Origin: Lachnospiraceae bacterium
GTDB lineage: Bacteria > Bacillota > Clostridia > Lachnospirales > Lachnospiraceae
Direction of reading: 5' to 3'
Assembly (NCBI GenBank): GCA_017509985.1
Contig: JAFWOE010000054.1
Location: forward strand, 62,001 to 126,000
DNA: 64,000 bases
A program made the position numbers and the translations under genes. Shown piece by piece: positions 13,016-34,816 of this stretch. The notes beneath the pieces were generated by a model that saw only the letters and a program-made list of their open reading frames with translations, did no database searches and was not told the DNA's origin. Every line of letters begins with the position of its first letter. Within the stretch, counting starts at the first letter, position 1.

Positions 13016-14062
13016 TCAATCCAGAAGCAGGTCAGGACGGTCGTTTGCAAAAGTGCAAAGTTCCGGAACCGGGAATTTGTATACCCTGGCTGCGTTTCCG
13101 CCGACGATAAGGTTGATCTCATCCTGCGTGCAGAGGTCGAGATCGATCAGGCGCCCGATCTGACGAATCGGCCATCCATAGAAGTCCGGCTGATAGTTCG
13201 CTTCGCGTCTTTCCGGCGTCCAGTTTCTTCTATTGTACCAGACCTTGGTAGGTTCGACATATCTGAGGCCCGGACGGGTAGCCTGCGGATACCACAGACG
13301 GCTGCCGGTATCACCGCCGCCCCAGATTAGACGTCCTGCACCCATCTGAGGATCCTTAAGCGCGATCTCATAATACTCTGCTCTCCAGTAACCTGTCTCA
13401 AGGTAGACGTTTAAGCCGCGGGATGCAAAGTCAACTGTTTCCTGAATGTCAGGAACAGTCCAGCCGCCGCCGTGAGGAACGATTACTTTTAGTTCCGGAT
13501 ATTTCTGGATAACACGGGTCATTACCTGGAATGCTGCGTGGCGATCCAGAGGAGAGGTGGGATCCTGATACTCATGGAAATAGAAGGGGATATCGTAAGC
13601 CATAGCGAGCTCTGCGATAGCAAGGTATTCATCATAACGCTGCTCGACTGTAGGCGGTTTTCGGACAGTGCCCATACAGCCCGGTGCGAACTCTCCGATA
13701 CCGGCAAAGAATCCGGGGTTGTCATCGAGAACCTTGGATATTTCATCGATGGAGTATTTAATGTTCCATTCGATTTCGCCGTGAGCAGCCCTTATGCGGG
13801 TCGTGGTGTCCATGCAGCAGGTACGGAATCTGTCGGGATGGCGTTTAACGATCTCCATATGTTTTTCATTGGTTGTACCAATGAAGCTGGGAAGAAGAAG
13901 TCCCATGTCAACTCCATAGGTATCCATGTCATAGATGATCATGTCGGAATTGTCAACAGATTCAACTTCCGCCCAGATGCCGCCGGTTTTGCTGTCCTTC
14001 TTCGCTGCGTCCTTCTTTCCGCAGTGAATATGACCATCGATTACAAAACGACCGATTTTCAT
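13016..14062 (-). CDS. amidohydrolase-2 family metal-dependent hydrolase/decarboxylase (copy 1)
   Basis: 348 residues, TIM-barrel amidohydrolase family (PF04909 type). The N-terminal metal motif GHIHCG, a Glu in GIGEFAPG, His in FYFHEY, His in VPHGGG and the late Asp in WGGGDTGS give a full set of candidate metal ligands. Members include ACMSD, gamma-resorcylate decarboxylase and lactonases of aromatic breakdown, so decarboxylation or ring hydrolysis is possible. It is a clear paralogue of the gene just upstream (shared NSDMIIYDMD and YGVDMG blocks) and more distantly of the one at 32.4 kb. AGGAGG precedes the ATG. Substrate unknown. Confidence 0.85.
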   Translation of the reverse strand: MKIGRFVIDGHIHCGKKDAAKKDSKTGGIWAEVESVDNSDMIIYDMDTYGVDMGLLLPSFIGTTNEKHMEIVKRHPDRFRTCCMDTTTRIRAAHGEIEWNIKYSIDEISKVLDDNPGFFAGIGEFAPGCMGTVRKPPTVEQRYDEYLAIAELAMAYDIPFYFHEYQDPTSPLDRHAAFQVMTRVIQKYPELKVIVPHGGGWTVPDIQETVDFASRGLNVYLETGYWRAEYYEIALKDPQMGAGRLIWGGGDTGSRLWYPQATRPGLRYVEPTKVWYNRRNWTPERREANYQPDFYGWPIRQIGRLIDLDLCTQDEINLIVGGNAARVYKFPVPELCTFANDRPDLLLD

Positions 14063-14114: not shown

Positions 14115-15242
14115 TTATTTATTCATTCCGAAAGTGTTCGGAATATAATCACAGTCGTCAGGCAGAGAATAACCTGTTCTGACAGCCTCCTGTTCCATCT
14201 CCGCCAAAGAAGGAACCCACAGATCGGGTCTGCCGCTGCAGAACGTGATCAGCGGATTGAGATCCAGCTTATAGAGACGGGCTGCGTTGCCGCCGATAAT
14301 GAGGTTGATTTCATCCTGAGTGCACAAATCAAGATCCTTAAGCCTGTGGATCTGATGTGTTGCCCAGCCGTAGAAGTCGGGCTGATATTCGGCTTCGCGT
14401 CTTTCCGGAGTCCAATTGTTGCGATTGTTCCAGATCTTTGTTTTTTCTACGAGAATTGCGCCTGGCTGCATAGCCTGCTGGTACCAGATACGGCTGCCGG
14501 TATCTCCTCCGCCCCAGATGAGCTTTCTTGCACCGACATGGTAGTCCTTAAGAGCATACTCATAATATTCGCTCTTCCAGTAGCCCGTCTCAAGATAAAC
14601 ATGCTCGAAGTTGGAAGCGAGGGTTACAGCCTTTTCGATTTCATAGCCCTTGTATCCGCCGCCATGTGCAATGATGACTTTCAGATTCGGGAATTTAAAG
14701 CAGACATTAGCCAGCATTGTGAAGGGCTCTTCCTGGTTGAAGCTGGCGTACTCATGGAAGTAAACGGGTACGTCGTGAGCGGTAGCAACTTCAGCGATCA
14801 TGCACCACTCACGGAAACGCTCGTAGCGCGTAGGGCGCTCGCGGACGCAGCCCATGCTGCCTGGAGCAAATTCACCGATGCCGCGGAAGATGTCAGGGTC
14901 TCTTGTAAGAACATCGTCAAGTTCCTTGCAGGCATCTTCAATGTTCCAGGGCTTTATGCCGCGGACTGCATTCAGACGCGTCGTGGTATCCATGCAGCAG
15001 GAACGGAACCGGTCGGGATGACGCTGAACAATCTTTTTATGACCTTCGTTGGTGGTTCCGGTAAAGCTGGGAAGAAGCATTCCCATGTCTACGCCGTAAG
15101 CATCCATATCATAAATGATCATATCGGAATTGTCGACTTCCTCAACTTCTGCCAAAAGGCCGCTGACTTTGCTGTCTTTTTTTGCAGAGTCTTTTTTGCC
15201 GCAGTGAATGTGACCGTCAAATACGAATCTACCAAGTTTCAT
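14115..15242 (-). CDS. amidohydrolase-2 family metal-dependent hydrolase/decarboxylase (copy 2)
   Basis: 375 residues, paralogue of the neighbouring copy along its whole length, with the same GHIHCG, GIGEFAPG, VYFHEY, IAHGGG and WGGGDTGS motifs. It has a C-terminal extension of about 25 residues (GRPDLWVPSLAEMEQEA onward). The tandem pair follows the TRAP permease genes on the same strand, so the imported acid is the most likely substrate or precursor. The two copies could form a heteromer or act on successive intermediates. Which reaction they catalyse is not visible. Confidence 0.85.
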   Translation of the reverse strand: MKLGRFVFDGHIHCGKKDSAKKDSKVSGLLAEVEEVDNSDMIIYDMDAYGVDMGMLLPSFTGTTNEGHKKIVQRHPDRFRSCCMDTTTRLNAVRGIKPWNIEDACKELDDVLTRDPDIFRGIGEFAPGSMGCVRERPTRYERFREWCMIAEVATAHDVPVYFHEYASFNQEEPFTMLANVCFKFPNLKVIIAHGGGYKGYEIEKAVTLASNFEHVYLETGYWKSEYYEYALKDYHVGARKLIWGGGDTGSRIWYQQAMQPGAILVEKTKIWNNRNNWTPERREAEYQPDFYGWATHQIHRLKDLDLCTQDEINLIIGGNAARLYKLDLNPLITFCSGRPDLWVPSLAEMEQEAVRTGYSLPDDCDYIPNTFGMNK

Positions 15243-27328: not shown

Positions 27329-28234
27329 TTACGGATACAGCGTTTTTTTGCCCATTGCTACTTCTTCTTTTATCTTCTCCCATTCTTCTGCTGTCGGCAG
27401 TGATTCTTCTTCAGCCGGATCCATGGCTATGTCGCCTAAATTAACACTTTTTCCCTCTTGTGTCCGGATGCCCTCCAGCTTTTTTACCGCATAGCCTTCC
27501 GCTTCTATATAAAGATCATGTACTCCTGCCGGAAGGTCCTCAAACCAGAAATCTCCGAAAAGATCCGTTGTTGTTTCCCGTCTTCTGCCGCCGGTCAGCA
27601 GACGGCACTTTGCACCTTCGATAATCTCTTTTCGAACCGGATCATAAACAAGACCTGCGATAAACCGTCCCGGAATGTTTTTGTAATAAACGTTCGGTTT
27701 GCAGCCCTCTTCTGGTTTTAAAACAACAGCACCTTCTGTTTCCTCTGCGGATTCTTCCAAATCAATAAACTTCATAGCTTCTGTAGGGCAGGCCTCCACG
27801 CAGCGAGGCAGATCAAATCCGTTATCCAGCAGATGTGCACACCCCGTGCATTTCTGGGCTATCTTCAGTTCCTGATTCATGTAGATCGCACCGTAGGCGC
27901 AGGCCTCCGAACATTTTCCGCAGCCGCAGCACTTTTCCGGCTCTATGATCACAAAATCATGATCTTCATGTCGGGTAATCGCATGGCATTCGCAGACTGC
28001 CATGCATTTCGGGTTGTCACAATGATTGCACAGCCGGGGAATATAATGCATACGCACTTTGGGAACTGTACCCTCTGTATGTTCTTCCAGTCTGAGCCAG
28101 AAAGCTCCCAGCTCCGGCTGCGGTTTTGCATACGGTGTCCAGTCATTGCCGCAATGCTCGTCTTTGCAGGCAGTCTGACAGCTGTAACAGCCGACGCATC
28201 TCGCAACGTCAATTACAAATGCTTTCTTTCCCAT
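27329..28234 (-). CDS. transhydroxylase-like iron-sulfur (beta) subunit
   Basis: 301 residues from the ATG at 28234, with AAGGAGGG overlapping the end of the upstream gene; the longer frame from 28381 is not supported. Cys groups at 13-28, 69-83, 102-112 and 129-149 would bind three 4Fe-4S clusters, as in NrfC/DmsB-like electron carriers. Residues about 190-285 form a carboxypeptidase-regulatory-like beta sandwich (DLFGDFWFEDLPAGVHDLYIEAEGY region). Fe-S domain plus beta-barrel tail is the plan of the small subunit of Pelobacter pyrogallol-phloroglucinol transhydroxylase. It partners the large molybdenum subunit encoded 2 bp upstream. Confidence 0.85.
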   Translation of the reverse strand: MGKKAFVIDVARCVGCYSCQTACKDEHCGNDWTPYAKPQPELGAFWLRLEEHTEGTVPKVRMHYIPRLCNHCDNPKCMAVCECHAITRHEDHDFVIIEPEKCCGCGKCSEACAYGAIYMNQELKIAQKCTGCAHLLDNGFDLPRCVEACPTEAMKFIDLEESAEETEGAVVLKPEEGCKPNVYYKNIPGRFIAGLVYDPVRKEIIEGAKCRLLTGGRRRETTTDLFGDFWFEDLPAGVHDLYIEAEGYAVKKLEGIRTQEGKSVNLGDIAMDPAEEESLPTAEEWEKIKEEVAMGKKTLYP

Positions 28235-28236
28235 GG

Positions 28237-31092
28237 TTATCCCTCCTTCTGTGCTCCGGTTATCGGACTGTCTGGAATTTCGCCGGGCGCCGGCTCCTTT
28301 TCTGTCAGCCAGCCTTTCAGGCAAAGCCCCACGCCTTCGTCTACTTTCCGTGAAAACGCATCCGGATACTTCCTCTTCCATTCTTCCATTTCGGCATCGG
28401 TCACTTTCTGCACATCAACCAGAAAACCAGTAACGACCATGCCTGCACAGTGTTTTGAGGAAACATTGGGGGGTGTGATCAGGTTGATCGCGCCGCCGCG
28501 GTCGATACCGTTCGGATCGATAGGATCAAACCGAGAACCGTGGTCGATATAAGCTGCACCCGGTCTCAGACGTTCTGTGACATAGGCTCCGCACAAAACA
28601 ATACCGCGTTCGTTAAAAATCTTGACGATGTCGCCATGCTTGATTCCACGTTTTTGGGCTTCTATCGGATTCAGCCATACCGGCTCATACTGGTAGCCGT
28701 CCTTACAGCGGATCTTCATCGTCTCAACTTCGCGGTTCCATTTGATATCATCACACTGGGCATGCATTCTCCAGTGTCCGTGGTTGGACACACAAAGCAA
28801 TGGATACGTCTTCGCCCGTTCAGAAGAAATATTCTCATCATGATAGAAACCCTTTTCGATCCATTTGGGATGAACAGGTCTTTCTTTGTCATCCGGAAAA
28901 TACTTTTTCAGAGCAGTGGAAGTAAACTCGAGCTTTCCGCTCGGGGTATTAATCGGGTATTTTTCAGGGTTTACATAAAATTCGAACAGCCCTGCAGGAG
29001 TCTTTTCATAGATATCCGAACGAGGAAGGAAATGTACTCCTCCTTCATTCTCGATGAATTCCTGATAAGAATGTCCTTTTTCCGGCAGACCGGTCGCGCT
29101 GTAGAACATCTCACAGAGCTTCTCTTCGTCATTCTCCCAGACTCTGCTCTTGGTGTAGTTCTCGTAATAATCCTCCCCCAGTGCTCTGGCGACCCTGGCA
29201 ACCGCTTCAAAGTCATTCAGAGATTCTCCGACCGGATCTGCACAGGGATAGGTGCGATAGATCGCCTGGAAAGTGCCCCCTCCGTCGTCTTCACATATAT
29301 CACCCATTTCCTTTTCTGTTACGATAGGAAGAATTATGTCTGCCATAAGGCAGTCGTTTTCCAGTGTCATATGCTGGGCGACAATGCATTCGATCTCCTC
29401 GCTCTGATAGGCTTTGGCAAACTGGAAACCGTCATTCCAGCAAGTGATATTACAGGGAGCATCCGTCCAGATCATATGAATACGGGAACAATCCTTTGCA
29501 GGATAATGAAAATGCAGCCACTGCTGACTCGTCGGGCCGCAGAATGTCAGCAATCCCCACCAGTCAACGTGCCCTTCCAGAATCGCCTGTGCTACAAGGC
29601 ACCGCGGAATCGACTGGATCGGTCCATGCTCATCATATTTCATCAGTTCCATCAGGCCGGCATTGCCTCTGACGCTTGTCTTTCTGGTTGCGAAGGCTCC
29701 CAGATCGATTTCGGGCCCTTCTGTATTCTTGGCAGTGATCGGTCCCTGCAGTTTTAAAGCCTGCTCTGCAACTTCATCACTGACTTTAAAATAGGTCTGT
29801 CTCTTAAGATCAAAAGGACGAACCAGGTCAGAAAAGCCGGGCAGCCGGGTTGTAACATCAGAAACATAAGGCATCGGCCCGTATTTATCATCCAGATTCC
29901 ACTCAATCATTTTTGCCTGATGGTGTCCCGGTTTTCCAAGTCCCTGCATACCGAGCGCGATCGCCGCAAGCCGCGCCGGTTCATGACTGTACGGTCCTCG
30001 AATAAGCCCGCCGCCATTGCCGATGATCTGGCTGGTATCCAGTTTAGCCCATGCTCTGGCAAGCGCTTTGATCGTCCATTCGGAGACGCCGCATTTCCCG
30101 GATGCCCACTCCGGAGTTTTCGGCACACCATCTTCTTTCCCCAGAACATAATCAAAGAATTCCTCCTGGCCGACTACATGTGTTTTTACGTACTCCTTGT
30201 CATAGATTTCTTCATCCAGCCAAGTATAAATAATGCTCAGGTAAAGTGCTGCATCCGTACAGGGAAGCACCGGGATCCATTTATCGGCATGGACAGCAGC
30301 ACCGTAATTCAGATCCGGGCAGACGTAAACGGCTTTAATGCCAAGATCATGAAGATAGTAACAGAGCCTGCTGGCCATATATCCAGCGATCGCATTCGGC
30401 GTTGTTTCCGGGTCACACCCCCAGAAAAGCAGCATCTGCGAATGCTTTGCTATATCGGGATAGAGGTTGATCATCGGAGCCATTTCGCCTACTGCCGTAC
30501 CTCCCCACACATGCTTTGCGCCCCAGAACCAGCCTTCCCAGGAATCCTCATTTCTCATCTGCAGAGTGTATCCTCCCAAAAGGGACAGCAGTCTTGCCTG
30601 ATTGCCATGAGAACAATAAATATGCTTTCCTTCCGCATGCATATCCGCTTCTACAAGAACTGCTTCCGGTCCGTATTTTTTATTGACTCTTTTTAACTCA
30701 TCGGCGATCAGCTGCGCAGCTTCTTCCCAGGAAATACGCACATATTTGCTCTTTCCCCGGTTCTGAGGATTGCGTTCTCCATTCGGATCCCAGTCCACTC
30801 GTTTAAGAGGGTAGCGAACGCGGTTTTCCGAATACACACGTGTTTTAAACGATAACCCCATATTGGACGGAAGTGATTTTTTCGGAGGGCCGAACTCCAG
30901 CTTTTTAGCACTGATCTTCCACGGTGAAAGACTATCCATCGATCTTTTCTGGTCATATCGATATGGGCGCAGGCGTACCATCCTTCCCTTGTCAACATCC
31001 ACGCTCACGGGCGGTCCCCCGTCCATTCCCAGAAAGGATGTTCCCTTGATCCGCCGGTCAACCGACTTCACATCCAATTTAACAGCTTTCAT
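28237..31092 (-). CDS. molybdopterin oxidoreductase, pyrogallol-phloroglucinol transhydroxylase-like large subunit
   Basis: 951 residues, DMSO-reductase superfamily. There is no Tat signal and no N-terminal Fe-S Cys motif, both as in the transhydroxylase large subunit, so it is cytoplasmic. Family-like blocks include YPLKRVDWDPNGERNP (94-109), ISWEEAA and NEDSWEGWFWG (181-191). In the latter, Asp183-Ser184 should match the catalytic Asp and Mo-ligand Ser, and His152 in MHAEGKH may match the active-site His. The C-terminal molydopterin-binding domain ends with DRGGAINLITPP. By analogy it removes, adds or transfers a phenolic hydroxyl without oxygen. Whether the substrate is pyrogallol or another polyphenol is unknown. 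The alignment was done from memory of the family. Confidence 0.83.
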   Translation of the reverse strand: MKAVKLDVKSVDRRIKGTSFLGMDGGPPVSVDVDKGRMVRLRPYRYDQKRSMDSLSPWKISAKKLEFGPPKKSLPSNMGLSFKTRVYSENRVRYPLKRVDWDPNGERNPQNRGKSKYVRISWEEAAQLIADELKRVNKKYGPEAVLVEADMHAEGKHIYCSHGNQARLLSLLGGYTLQMRNEDSWEGWFWGAKHVWGGTAVGEMAPMINLYPDIAKHSQMLLFWGCDPETTPNAIAGYMASRLCYYLHDLGIKAVYVCPDLNYGAAVHADKWIPVLPCTDAALYLSIIYTWLDEEIYDKEYVKTHVVGQEEFFDYVLGKEDGVPKTPEWASGKCGVSEWTIKALARAWAKLDTSQIIGNGGGLIRGPYSHEPARLAAIALGMQGLGKPGHHQAKMIEWNLDDKYGPMPYVSDVTTRLPGFSDLVRPFDLKRQTYFKVSDEVAEQALKLQGPITAKNTEGPEIDLGAFATRKTSVRGNAGLMELMKYDEHGPIQSIPRCLVAQAILEGHVDWWGLLTFCGPTSQQWLHFHYPAKDCSRIHMIWTDAPCNITCWNDGFQFAKAYQSEEIECIVAQHMTLENDCLMADIILPIVTEKEMGDICEDDGGGTFQAIYRTYPCADPVGESLNDFEAVARVARALGEDYYENYTKSRVWENDEEKLCEMFYSATGLPEKGHSYQEFIENEGGVHFLPRSDIYEKTPAGLFEFYVNPEKYPINTPSGKLEFTSTALKKYFPDDKERPVHPKWIEKGFYHDENISSERAKTYPLLCVSNHGHWRMHAQCDDIKWNREVETMKIRCKDGYQYEPVWLNPIEAQKRGIKHGDIVKIFNERGIVLCGAYVTERLRPGAAYIDHGSRFDPIDPNGIDRGGAINLITPPNVSSKHCAGMVVTGFLVDVQKVTDAEMEEWKRKYPDAFSRKVDEGVGLCLKGWLTEKEPAPGEIPDSPITGAQKEG

Positions 31093-31112: not shown

Positions 31113-32396
31113 TCAATGACAGGCTGCATTTCCGTTGATTCCATTCCCTTTAAGGGTTTCCGTACACGGAAATCCTTTCTTTCTTAACAACTTTTCAGAT
31201 ATAAGGTTTAATCCTACATTCAGGATGATCATAATAATAAACGCTGCATACGCTCCGCGGTATGAACTGGAAAAATCAACTATTCCTCCTACCAGAAACG
31301 GCGCTGCTACGGAGCCAAGCATAAAAAACAGATTCGCCGTACCCAGAATTGCCGAAAACTCCCTGTTCCCGAACATTTCCTGGATATAAGCGGAAATAAG
31401 GACCGTTCCGAACATATTTCCCAGTCCCAGTACACACATGGATACGACGACCGCCGTTTTACTGTGCAGCAAAAGGATCATCAGCATCGAAATAATCAGC
31501 AGCACACCGGCATATATAAAAGAAATCCTCGCTCCCGTTCTGTGGTACACCACACCCATGATCAGTTTTCCTACACAGCACAGAATGCTGAAGAGCGAAA
31601 GCATCAGCGCTGCAAATTCAGAGGAATACCCAAAGTCCACCTGAAGCATCGGGGCAAGGCTCTGCTGAATACCGATAACGTAGATCCCGCAGAACAGACA
31701 GGAAATACACAAAAGCCAAAGCCCCTTTAGTTTTAACGCTTCTTTCTGAGTCGGGCCATACAAAAGTGATCCTTTTGAAATCTCCGGCTCCCATCCGTAA
31801 GGATGGAGTCCCAGTACATCCGGTGCCGGCGAAATCAGCAAAAAGGCGGCAAATACGGCAGCAAATCCAGAAATACCCAACGAAACGAAACCGATCCTCC
31901 AGGAATGTGCTCTGATAAAATGATTTGCGATCTGAGAATAGATCACCGTTCCGATGCTGGTTCCCATTGTCACTATGGATACTGCAATACTTTTGTATTT
32001 CTCAAACCATGCAGAGACGACCGACACCCCAAGAAGTATACCAAAAAAAGGAATAAACAGGCTTAATAATGCCCCGACGATATAAAACTGATGGAGCCGG
32101 CTGCACCGGGCAGACAGGAAGAAAAGCAAAAGGCCAACGATGCCGGCAATCAAACAGATTACCCGTACATATTTCCGGAACCGTACCAGCAAACGCCCGA
32201 GCAACGGCTGAACAAGGATACTGGCAATTCCCATAAAGGAAACATACCCGGCAAATTCTGCTTGAGAAAAGCCCAGGTCACCCGTCACCGGCAGATAAAA
32301 CATCGATATTGCTCCGTTCATACCGCCGATCGTGTTGATCAGAAAAGCTCCGATCAGAGTCATTATGGCCTTTCGCTTTATAGTCTCCTTATTCAT
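31113..32396 (-). CDS. MFS transporter, oxalate:formate antiporter-like
   Basis: 427 residues, twelve hydrophobic segments. The start MNKETIKRKAIMTLIGAFLI and the GAISMFYLPVTGDLGFSQ region resemble the monocarboxylate/OxlT branch of the major facilitator superfamily, and a cytoplasmic loop separates TM6 and TM7. Lying between the third amidohydrolase and the transhydroxylase on the same strand, it is likely a second entry or exit route for an aromatic acid or a fermentation product. Direction and substrate cannot be inferred. Confidence 0.9.
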   Translation of the reverse strand: MNKETIKRKAIMTLIGAFLINTIGGMNGAISMFYLPVTGDLGFSQAEFAGYVSFMGIASILVQPLLGRLLVRFRKYVRVICLIAGIVGLLLFFLSARCSRLHQFYIVGALLSLFIPFFGILLGVSVVSAWFEKYKSIAVSIVTMGTSIGTVIYSQIANHFIRAHSWRIGFVSLGISGFAAVFAAFLLISPAPDVLGLHPYGWEPEISKGSLLYGPTQKEALKLKGLWLLCISCLFCGIYVIGIQQSLAPMLQVDFGYSSEFAALMLSLFSILCCVGKLIMGVVYHRTGARISFIYAGVLLIISMLMILLLHSKTAVVVSMCVLGLGNMFGTVLISAYIQEMFGNREFSAILGTANLFFMLGSVAAPFLVGGIVDFSSSYRGAYAAFIIMIILNVGLNLISEKLLRKKGFPCTETLKGNGINGNAACH

Positions 32397-32438: not shown

Positions 32439-33662
32439 TTACTTTTCTTCCTTTTCTTTCTTCATGCGTTCAAAATCCTTGCTGGTCGGATGGAAAACCG
32501 GCGGATTTTTGGCACGTTCTTCAAAAACTTTCTTATTTGCGGCTTTCTGATCCGGGTTTATTACCTGTTCAATCGGAACGAACGGTATGGATTCTTTCCA
32601 GTGAATGCCATTGATATCCGGCCGGCCGCAGAGGAACATCCTCTCACACGGAACAGGAAGCTTAAACAGCTTTGCTGCATTGCCGCCGAGAATCAGGTTG
32701 ATCTCATCCTGCCCGACCCATTCTTTCAGCTTCTGGATCTGAGTGGTCTCCCATCCCCACCAGTCCGACTGATAAGCCGGTGTAGCGGGCCAGCGTTTCA
32801 TAGAAGAAGACCATTGCTGGCCGCGGGCAGCATCCATGTGTAGATATTGAGGCACGTTGCCATAATCCGAACCCCACAACAGCTGTGTCGGTCCTACATT
32901 CGGATCTTCCACAGCCATACGGATTTCTTCCGCCGTCCAGGTTCCGACTTCCAGATATACGTTGGATTCAACGCCTCTGCCGGTGTATCTTCCGGCACTT
33001 TTAAGAGATTTGCGGATTTTCCAGTCGCCCAGAGCATAGTCGCCAATAGACTGGCCTCCATGGTTGACTATAATTTTAACATCCGGATATCTTCCGGACA
33101 GACGGTCCAGCAGCACCCACGGATCAAAATACAGATCGCTCCACTGTAAATCATGGTAGGCAATCGGAACCTTATATTTCCGGGCAAGATCAAAGAAGAT
33201 GCAGTACTCGGCAAACCTTTCCTCAAACGTGTAAATATGATTCGGGTCCCAGTCTCTGGGAACAAATTCCCCTATACCGATATATCGTCCTGTAGCAAGT
33301 GCCGTATCGATTTCCTCCGCTGCAGCATCGATCGTCCAGGGAGCTTCCCCTCTCTGTGCTTTCAGTTTCGTCATCTGATCGGAGCAGAACGCACGGAATT
33401 TGTCGGGGTATTTGTCCACGATTTCGAGCTGGGCTTCGTTGGTCGTGCCGATCAGGCTCGGATAAAGCAGCACCATATCGACACCATAACAGTCCATGTC
33501 CCACAAGGTCAGAGGAAGATTTTCTACATGTTCTACTTCCCCCTGTCCGGGCCTCATCGGCAGTCCGTCCCATCCTTCCGGCTGCGGATCATCACCAACG
33601 CTGTCATATAAGGTGGTAATATGCCCGTGTGTCTCTACTACAAAACGACCCATCTTACTCAT
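32439..33662 (-). CDS. amidohydrolase-2 family metal-dependent hydrolase/decarboxylase (copy 3)
   Basis: 407 residues. Divergent paralogue of the two at 13-15 kb. The metal motif is THGHI instead of GHIHC, followed by GIGEFVPR, IAYHDL, VNHGGQ and WGSDYGN, so candidate ligands remain, and YPSLIGTTNEAQ is shared. The C-terminus adds about 60 charged residues (NPDQKAANKKVFEERAKNP to the end). The location inside the 4-hydroxybutyrate/transhydroxylase run links both halves of the block to the same chemistry. M1 or M4 may be the true start. Confidence 0.83.
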   Translation of the reverse strand: MSKMGRFVVETHGHITTLYDSVGDDPQPEGWDGLPMRPGQGEVEHVENLPLTLWDMDCYGVDMVLLYPSLIGTTNEAQLEIVDKYPDKFRAFCSDQMTKLKAQRGEAPWTIDAAAEEIDTALATGRYIGIGEFVPRDWDPNHIYTFEERFAEYCIFFDLARKYKVPIAYHDLQWSDLYFDPWVLLDRLSGRYPDVKIIVNHGGQSIGDYALGDWKIRKSLKSAGRYTGRGVESNVYLEVGTWTAEEIRMAVEDPNVGPTQLLWGSDYGNVPQYLHMDAARGQQWSSSMKRWPATPAYQSDWWGWETTQIQKLKEWVGQDEINLILGGNAAKLFKLPVPCERMFLCGRPDINGIHWKESIPFVPIEQVINPDQKAANKKVFEERAKNPPVFHPTSKDFERMKKEKEEK

Positions 33663-34084: not shown

Positions 34085-34816
34085 TCATCGTATCATTAAG
34101 GTGATTTCCGCCGCCGCAGCAAGTTTTTCCCCGAGGAATATCTGACATCGCACCTCCGCACTGCCGAGCTCCCGCCGTTCTTTTAAAAGAGAAGCATGTA
34201 TTTCCATTTCCATCCCCGGAAGAATTGCCATCCGGCATTTAGCCTTTTTAATTTCAAAGAGCAGCGGCCGTTTTCCCTTATAATCCTCTAAAGAAAGCAT
34301 CATGATGCCTGCTGCCTGCGCCATGGCTTCAATGGACAGAACGCCCGGAAAGATCGGATCGCCCGGAAAATGACCCTGTAAAACGACATGCGCCGGATCG
34401 ACTTTATATACAGCCGTTATTTCCCGCCCTCTTATCAGCCTGGGGACAGCATCAATCAGCAGCATCGGTTCTCGATGGGGCAGGATCTGCAGAATCTGAC
34501 GGATGCTCAGGCTTTTCGCATTTTCGGAATCATCTTTCTCGCGGCAAATATCTTCGATCTTAGTTTTCGCCGGAAGAAAGTCTGCAAAGCTCAGAATATA
34601 AATCAGTCTGTCTTCGGGAACGGACAAGTCTTCCGTTCTCGCACATGCGGAAGGGCAGCCGCAGACGACAAGCACTGCCATGTAATTTGCCCTTGGGTTT
34701 ACATACTCAAACAGGATATCCGGAAACGCATCTTTTATTTTTTTTACAACCTTTTGACGGTCATAGCCGGCGTTGCATCCCCCGCAAAAACGGATACCGA
34801 TCTTTCGGTCTTTCAT
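34085..34816 (-). CDS. CGGC-type Cys domain fused to a FabZ-like hotdog domain
   Basis: 243 residues. Residues 1-90 hold RFCGGCNAGYDR and CGCPSACAR, a small Cys-rich domain likely to bind metal or sense redox. Residues 105-243 are a hotdog fold with ILPHREPMLLIDAV and GHFPGDPIFPGVLSIEAMAQAAG, the core motif of 3-hydroxyacyl-ACP dehydratase FabZ including the active-site His and Glu. Its ATG overlaps the stop of the upstream dehydrogenase (TGATG), and an ACP gene follows, so a dehydratase or thioesterase step on an ACP-bound intermediate is plausible. I know of no described function for this fusion. Confidence 0.8.
   Translation of the reverse strand: MKDRKIGIRFCGGCNAGYDRQKVVKKIKDAFPDILFEYVNPRANYMAVLVVCGCPSACARTEDLSVPEDRLIYILSFADFLPAKTKIEDICREKDDSENAKSLSIRQILQILPHREPMLLIDAVPRLIRGREITAVYKVDPAHVVLQGHFPGDPIFPGVLSIEAMAQAAGIMMLSLEDYKGKRPLLFEIKKAKCRMAILPGMEMEIHASLLKERRELGSAEVRCQIFLGEKLAAAAEITLMIR

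Follow-up and report, generated by a model that had tools for sequence, protein, structure and literature searches.

A transhydroxylase-like molybdoenzyme of a sister clade in a Lachnospiraceae genome and its possible place upstream of transhydroxylase

The window considered here is a 64,000-nucleotide stretch of DNA from a Lachnospiraceae bacterium, an anaerobe of the gut type (GenBank assembly GCA_017509985.1, contig JAFWOE010000054.1). On its reverse strand lie the adjoining genes of a two-subunit molybdoenzyme, composed of a large molybdopterin subunit (P0001) and a small iron-sulfur (Fe-S) subunit (P0002), and next to them genes for a transporter and an amidohydrolase (Table 1). The genome is of the kind assembled from a metagenome (metagenome-assembled genome, MAG), 2.22 Mb in length with a completeness of 97.7%, and belongs to the same genus as genome G004. 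By sequence and by fold, the heterodimer has as its best solved relative the pyrogallol-phloroglucinol transhydroxylase of Pelobacter acidigallici (TthLS, or PgtL; Protein Data Bank [PDB] entry 4v4c), to our knowledge the only transhydroxylase of the TthL kind with a solved structure. Judging from a tree of related sequences, however, P0001 is a member not of the clade containing TthL (clade A) but of a deep sister clade (clade B).

Both subunits lead to the same relative. In phmmer searches against the PDB, the top match of P0001 is TthL (4v4c_A, E = 4.9e-123), acetylene hydratase being matched only at E = 1.4e-12, and the top match of P0002 is TthB, the small subunit of the same enzyme (4v4c_B, E = 5.3e-47). 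An AlphaFold2 model of P0001 (mean pLDDT 85.5) again finds 4v4c_A first when compared by Foldseek (TM 0.76/0.82), with dimethyl sulfoxide (DMSO) and trimethylamine N-oxide (TMAO) reductases behind and acetylene hydratase at rank 28; in the structural alignment, P0001 and TthL are about 30% identical. Since TthLS comes first for both subunits by sequence and the fold of the model also leads to 4v4c_A, the assignment to a TthL-like family is sound, as had been proposed in a preliminary description of the locus, which also recommended the structural comparison with the Pelobacter enzyme. Other DMSO-reductase families are ruled out by sequence, by fold, and by NCBIfam cut-offs: P0001 scores 304 bits against TIGR00509 (cut-off 1017) and 276 against dmsA (cut-off 778). 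A place in the branch of catechol dehydroxylases and acetylene hydratase is likewise ruled out by E values and fold ranks when set against those of TthL.

P0001 and P0002 share with TthLS the fold, the order of domains, the serine ligand to molybdenum (Mo), the counterparts of Asp174 and His144, the lack of an N-terminal Fe-S site, an Fe-S small subunit ending in a beta domain, and the presence of phloroglucinol-type pathway genes in the genome. The first cysteine of P0001 is residue 160, so the N-terminal Fe-S cysteines are missing, and no signal peptide is evident in its sequence (an RR pair at residues 13-14 has no hydrophobic stretch behind it). Both traits had been described beforehand, along with the DSWEGW and DRGGAINLITPP blocks, which lie where they had been placed. 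DMSO and TMAO reductases (DmsA, DorA, TorA) resemble the enzyme in their serine ligand, in a small subunit with four clusters of the DmsB type, and, as the second-best matches, in fold. Unlike them, P0001 has no evident signal peptide and no adjoining gene for a membrane anchor, conserves DSWEGW, and falls below the cut-offs given above.

For P0002, the start given mechanically by the open reading frame (28381) was replaced by the ATG at 28234, which is preceded by GGAGGGATAACC, a ribosome site of the GGAGG type. The subunit has 16 ligand cysteines, equivalent to four [4Fe-4S] sites, where TthB has 12, equivalent to three. The preliminary description had counted three motifs and must be corrected on this point, but the beta-sandwich tail it noted is there, as a PF13620 domain like that of TthB. 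The small subunits of clade A, TthB included, lack exactly C81, C102, C105, and C108 (numbered as in P0002), positions that provide the four ligands of one cluster in the usual pairing of DmsB-type proteins. All 16 cysteines are retained in P0002, in most clade-B small subunits, and in the DmsB outgroup. Taken by itself, the full set of cysteines in P0002 suggests electron exchange.

The Fe-S wire has probably been lost stepwise across the family. The extreme is found in plasmid-borne proteobacterial enzymes of clade A (L161-L165), whose small subunits retain just 8-9 of the 16 cysteines and, by this count, probably hold two clusters or fewer. Also, at six loci in MAGs of termite-type Oscillospiraceae (L053, L057, L063, L083, L097, L118), the clade-B gene directly follows an RNase Y-like gene and has no small subunit adjoining it. 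Perhaps a small subunit is shared among paralogues in these genomes.

Table 1. Genes, motifs, and residues of the transhydroxylase-like locus (positions within the window)
Feature	Position	Strand	Details
Small Fe-S subunit P0002	27329..28234	-	301 aa; ATG 28234, 2 bases past the stop codon of the large subunit
C-terminal beta domain of P0002	27422..27661	-	Residues 192-271; carboxypeptidase-regulatory-like PF13620; common to TthB
Cys motif IV of P0002	27788..27850	-	C129, C132, C145, C149
Cys motif III of P0002	27899..27931	-	C102, C105, C108, C112; C102, C105, and C108 missing in clade A
Cys motif II of P0002	27992..28030	-	C69, C72, C77, C81; C81 missing in clade A
Cys motif I of P0002	28166..28198	-	C13, C16, C19, C23
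Large molybdopterin subunit P0001	28237..31092	-	951 aa; clade B
DRGGAINLITPP block of P0001	28468..28503	-	Residues 864-875
Phe420 of P0001	29833..29835	-	Tyr404 in TthL (PGF-S-D versus PGY-A-E)
DSWEGW of P0001	30529..30546	-	Residues 183-188; Asp183 (Asp174 of TthL), Ser184 (Ser175, Mo ligand), Trp185
His152 of P0001	30637..30639	-	His144 of TthL
MFS transporter	31113..32396	-	Probably in one operon with the large subunit, 20 bases away
Amidohydrolase_2 protein	32439..33662	-	Probably of the same operon, 42 bases from the MFS gene; perhaps a decarboxylase or a hydrolase

The position of P0001 within the family emerges from a quick maximum likelihood tree of 106 sequences, a set that does not include the resorcinol hydroxylase RhL. 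The tree divides into clade A (30 rows) and its sister, clade B (74 rows), each with an SH-aLRT support of 100. Clade A contains TthL, close relatives from genomes of the family to which the window's organism belongs (G056 and G027), enzymes from proteobacterial plasmids, and two enzymes from the window's own genome (on contigs C34 and C20), whose presence is a further difference from the Pelobacter case. Clade B contains P0001, a paralogue from the same genome (on C54), and some 70 further sequences of Oscillospiraceae, Peptococcaceae, Lachnospiraceae, Synergistaceae, and other groups, most of them from MAGs of gut, rumen, termite, and digester origin. We know of no characterized member. P0001 is 55-64% identical to members of clade B and 31-37% identical to those of clade A, and its terminal branch is long (0.97).

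The two clades have much of the active site in common. Wherever a clade-B row has a residue at the Asp and Ser of DSWEGW (73 rows), it has just these two, and the Ser is found in 30 of 30 rows of clade A; the histidine at the position of His144 occurs in every row of either clade with a residue at that site; and the residues at the positions of TthL Asp174 and Trp176 (Trp185 in P0001) are kept throughout both. Since Ser184, Asp183, His152, and Trp185 are conserved, the Mo chemistry of clade B is probably related to that of TthL. The pocket is different, as Tyr404, Tyr152, Trp354, and Phe468 of TthL, which line it in the TthL structure, are replaced in clade B, in P0001 by Phe420, Cys160, Gly360, and Thr516, respectively. 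In clade A, Tyr404 and Tyr152 are tyrosine in 30 of 30 rows, and Trp354 gives way to Phe or Glu in part of the clade. The alignment in the region of Tyr404 is plausible, but the model is only moderately confident there (mean pLDDT 73 for residues 411-420 and 59 for 421-430). Tree, pocket residues, and Fe-S cysteines together rule out P0001 as an orthologue of TthL. By the tree and the active-site differences, P0001 is not the pyrogallol transhydroxylase proper, and here the preliminary description was correct on a point that it had not made itself.

Clade B is seldom found without clade A. A clade-A enzyme is encoded in 26 of the 29 clade-B genomes, including 20 of the 23 that were picked because the fetched locus had no clade-A gene. 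Of the three genomes without one, two are MAGs of small size (1.4-1.5 Mb). A clade-A gene lies in the same locus in 17 of 78 clade-B loci (genes in loci were counted by six-frame or tblastn searches). For comparison, among 98 relatives of the window's genome, clade A occurs in four and clade B in three, all three of which also have clade A. The converse does not hold: clade A occurs without clade B in one of the relatives (G027) and, in the tree, in the archaeal and Zixibacteria loci L122 and L124. Given this co-occurrence and the existence of clade A without clade B, the simplest reading is that clade B feeds clade A or the pathway below it. Some genomes carry several copies of clade B (G004) or many (G468). 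The paralogue on C54 is cut by the end of the contig. It seems to share an operon with a small subunit that lacks the fourth cluster (L133) and with proteins resembling a short-chain dehydrogenase/reductase (SDR), uroporphyrinogen decarboxylase, the metallo-beta-lactamase fold, and enoate reductase.

Genes of the phloroglucinol-pathway type are present in the genome, outside of the window. The preliminary description had remarked on the absence of phloroglucinol pathway genes, and in the 64-kb window there are indeed none, but they are found elsewhere. On contig C31, a TAL-like beta-keto acid cleavage enzyme (BKACE) gene adjoins that of an SDR similar to phloroglucinol reductase (PGR), 77% and 76% identical to their counterparts at a locus of another bacterium (L048). 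At a separate place on C31 lies a cupin-thiolase-TfD-CtfAB cluster (thiolase 73% and TfD 75% identical to L048), and on C15 is a cyclase resembling dihydrophloroglucinol cyclohydrolase (DPGC; 81% identical). At L048, the immediate neighbour of five such genes is a clade-B gene whose product shares 57% identity with P0001. Genes of this type (at least 50% identical to the L048 set) occur in 18 of the 80 named loci, and PGR, DPGC, TfD, TAL, and thiolase all occur together in five (L048, L052, L058, L078, and L079). The genes were assigned by family, gene order, and orthology to clustered sets, not against the sequences of assayed enzymes; a cluster of PGR, cyclase, 3-hydroxyacyl-CoA dehydrogenase, and BKACE has been proven to act on phloroglucinol in Clostridium scatologenes (PMC10470551). 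With PGR-, DPGC-, TfD-, and TAL-like genes as well as thiolase and CoA-transferase genes in the genome, absence of the pathway is ruled out. The preliminary description had itself named such genes, if co-regulated with the enzyme, as evidence against its reading, and of these two conditions their presence is shown. The genome also encodes a hydroxyarylic-acid decarboxylase similar to UbiD/VdcC, and the search for Mo cofactor genes that had been suggested turned up moaA and moeA about 3-5 kb from the clade-A gene on C34.

A second, diverged set of SDR, 3-hydroxyacyl-CoA dehydrogenase, cyclase, and BKACE genes lies on contig C3 of the same genome (L153, 38.6-44.5 kb), followed by a 652-aa protein that to the eye resembles acyl-CoA synthetases, with an 818-aa FAD protein nearby. 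It looks like a paralogous pathway of ring or C-C cleavage for another substrate.

What might clade B contribute? Our tentative preference is that it works upstream of clade A, where hydroxylation of a phenol with water is its most likely reaction; we infer the upstream position, the net redox reaction, the direction towards hydroxylation, and the substrate alike. P0001/P0002 would be a cytoplasmic heterodimer with bis-molybdopterin guanine dinucleotide (bis-MGD) that alters the ring hydroxyls of a plant-derived phenol. Mo(VI) would place a hydroxyl derived from water on a di- or trihydroxybenzene, and two electrons would leave through the four [4Fe-4S] clusters. The cell's own clade-A transhydroxylases (C34 and C20) would take over the product and lead it on to phloroglucinol, which the PGR/DPGC/TfD/TAL-like enzymes would process further. 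A hydroxylase is our first choice because the wire is mostly complete, the pocket is changed, and there is a precedent: the resorcinol hydroxylase of Azoarcus anaerobius (RhLS) has been grouped with PgtL in one Ser-ligated RhL/PgtL family (PMC10100899). RhLS resembles the chemistry proposed here in adding a hydroxyl to the ring and releasing electrons, but it is known from a denitrifier, and the comparison with P0001 is through the published family placement only. Perhaps more broadly, though we consider this doubtful, clade B, as a family of anaerobic water-dependent hydroxylases, enables fermenting Clostridia of gut, rumen, and termite to convert di- or trihydroxybenzenes, such as catechol from vanillate or further phenols of lignin, into substrates of clade A and thereby of the phloroglucinol pathway, the freed electrons being used by phloroglucinol reductase.

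Several observations weigh against a hydroxylase upstream of clade A. Co-occurrence and adjacency show a common pathway, not the direction of a reaction. The gene for P0001 adjoins neither clade-A nor pathway genes and, given this separation and its long branch, P0001 may have changed its substrate. Also, the cluster missing in clade A is missing as well in eight small subunits associated with clade B (L133, L142, L143, L060, L065, L107, L108, and L119), L133 being the one beside the paralogue on C54. In a tree of small subunits, the cluster-less members sit on branches that imply repeated loss, so the argument from the wire is weakened, and four clusters can no longer be taken as proof of redox chemistry. 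Repeated loss would fit a reaction without net redox, and clade B could then be a second transhydroxylase with a preference for other isomers (hydroxyhydroquinone or substituted trihydroxybenzenes), allowing these along with pyrogallol to reach phloroglucinol. The nearest characterized relative is, after all, a transhydroxylase, its Ser, Asp174, and His144 are retained, and clades A and B adjoin in pathway clusters. We nonetheless think it unlikely, for Tyr404, Tyr152, and Trp354 of the pocket are lost in clade B, and most of its small subunits keep the full four-cluster wire that clade A has lost.

The wire could also carry electrons inward. If it removed hydroxyls reductively from compounds of the catechol or pyrogallol type, clade B would serve as an electron sink and would be an independently evolved functional likeness of the actinobacterial catechol dehydroxylases (Dadh, Hcdh, and Cadh), which also use bis-MGD, act on phenolic hydroxyls, live in gut anaerobes, and form multi-copy families. 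The multiple clade-B copies in G004 and G468 recall the reported expansions of dehydroxylase paralogues, and clade B is found in MAGs from gut, rumen, and termite. Those dehydroxylases, however, cluster away from pyrogallol hydroxytransferase on a separate branch within the superfamily, with acetylene hydratase as their nearest neighbour (PMC7028382), whereas P0001 is far closer to TthL by the E values given above, and linkage to clade A and to ring-cleaving genes suits a catabolic entry better than an electron sink. We consider a dehydroxylase improbable. More remote still is the different polyphenol route proposed in the preliminary description, running through the amidohydrolase, acyl carrier protein (ACP), and 4-hydroxybutyrate enzymes. 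The arrangement is there to be seen: nine genes, the first for a CoA-transferase (38494) and the last for the small subunit (27329), run in one direction and are -1 to 96 bases apart. Those upstream of the amidohydrolase include ACP, a FabZ-like protein, two iron-type alcohol dehydrogenases, and the CoA-transferase, which belongs to the 4-hydroxybutyrate type. Genes for 4-hydroxybutyrate are indeed present, as the HpaB-family protein resembles 4-hydroxybutyryl-CoA dehydratase (1u8v, E = 2.7e-234). Yet no orthologue of the amidohydrolase, ACP, FabZ-like, alcohol dehydrogenase, or 4-hydroxybutyrate genes lies near any fetched relative, so these neighbours say little for a linked route; of the 392 genomes of the order that were sampled, only that of the window has the amidohydrolase family; and phloroglucinol-type genes are encoded in the same genome. 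Furthermore, 4-hydroxybutyrate modules have other uses, as in the fermentation of gamma-aminobutyrate (GABA) and succinate. The case for another route, built on missing genes, thus fails, and P0001 probably provides one more step by which plant phenols enter the pathway.

Clade B is the second and larger clade of the family, apparently uncharacterized, common in Clostridia of rumen, termite, and digester, and almost always found alongside clade A. If it does provide an upstream step, whether hydroxylating or dehydroxylating, fermenting anaerobes would have access to a wider range of plant phenols with neither oxygen nor benzoyl-CoA chemistry. If the step is a hydroxylation, it would account for the cleavage of rings derived from vanillate and syringate in organisms such as Sporobacter termitidis, which grows on both compounds through O-demethylation and ring cleavage (PMC4585845). 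The type strain (L106) has genes of clades A and B side by side along with PGR-like and thiolase genes, and a hydroxylating step would supply what its degradation of vanillate needs. As strain DSM 10068, it is in culture and offers a concrete genetic candidate for clade B.

The MFS transporter and amidohydrolase linked to P0001 hint at an imported aromatic acid. The 4-hydroxybutyrate, ACP, FabZ-like, and amidohydrolase genes may be co-transcribed with it through a chance arrangement, or they may be a lineage-specific addition. The amidohydrolase has no match in PDB or NCBIfam, and its model is poor (pLDDT 49.5). It is one of three amidohydrolase_2 paralogues in the window (13016-14062, 14115-15242, and 32439-33662), and its only plasmid relative is from the haloarchaeon Halobellus limi, where it lies among genes for methyltransferase, VOC, and adenylate-forming proteins, an apparent cluster for aromatic or C1 compounds. 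Between the ACP gene and those of the two alcohol dehydrogenases, the gene at 34085-34816 encodes its FabZ-like domain behind an N-terminal part of 100 aa with a CGGCN motif.

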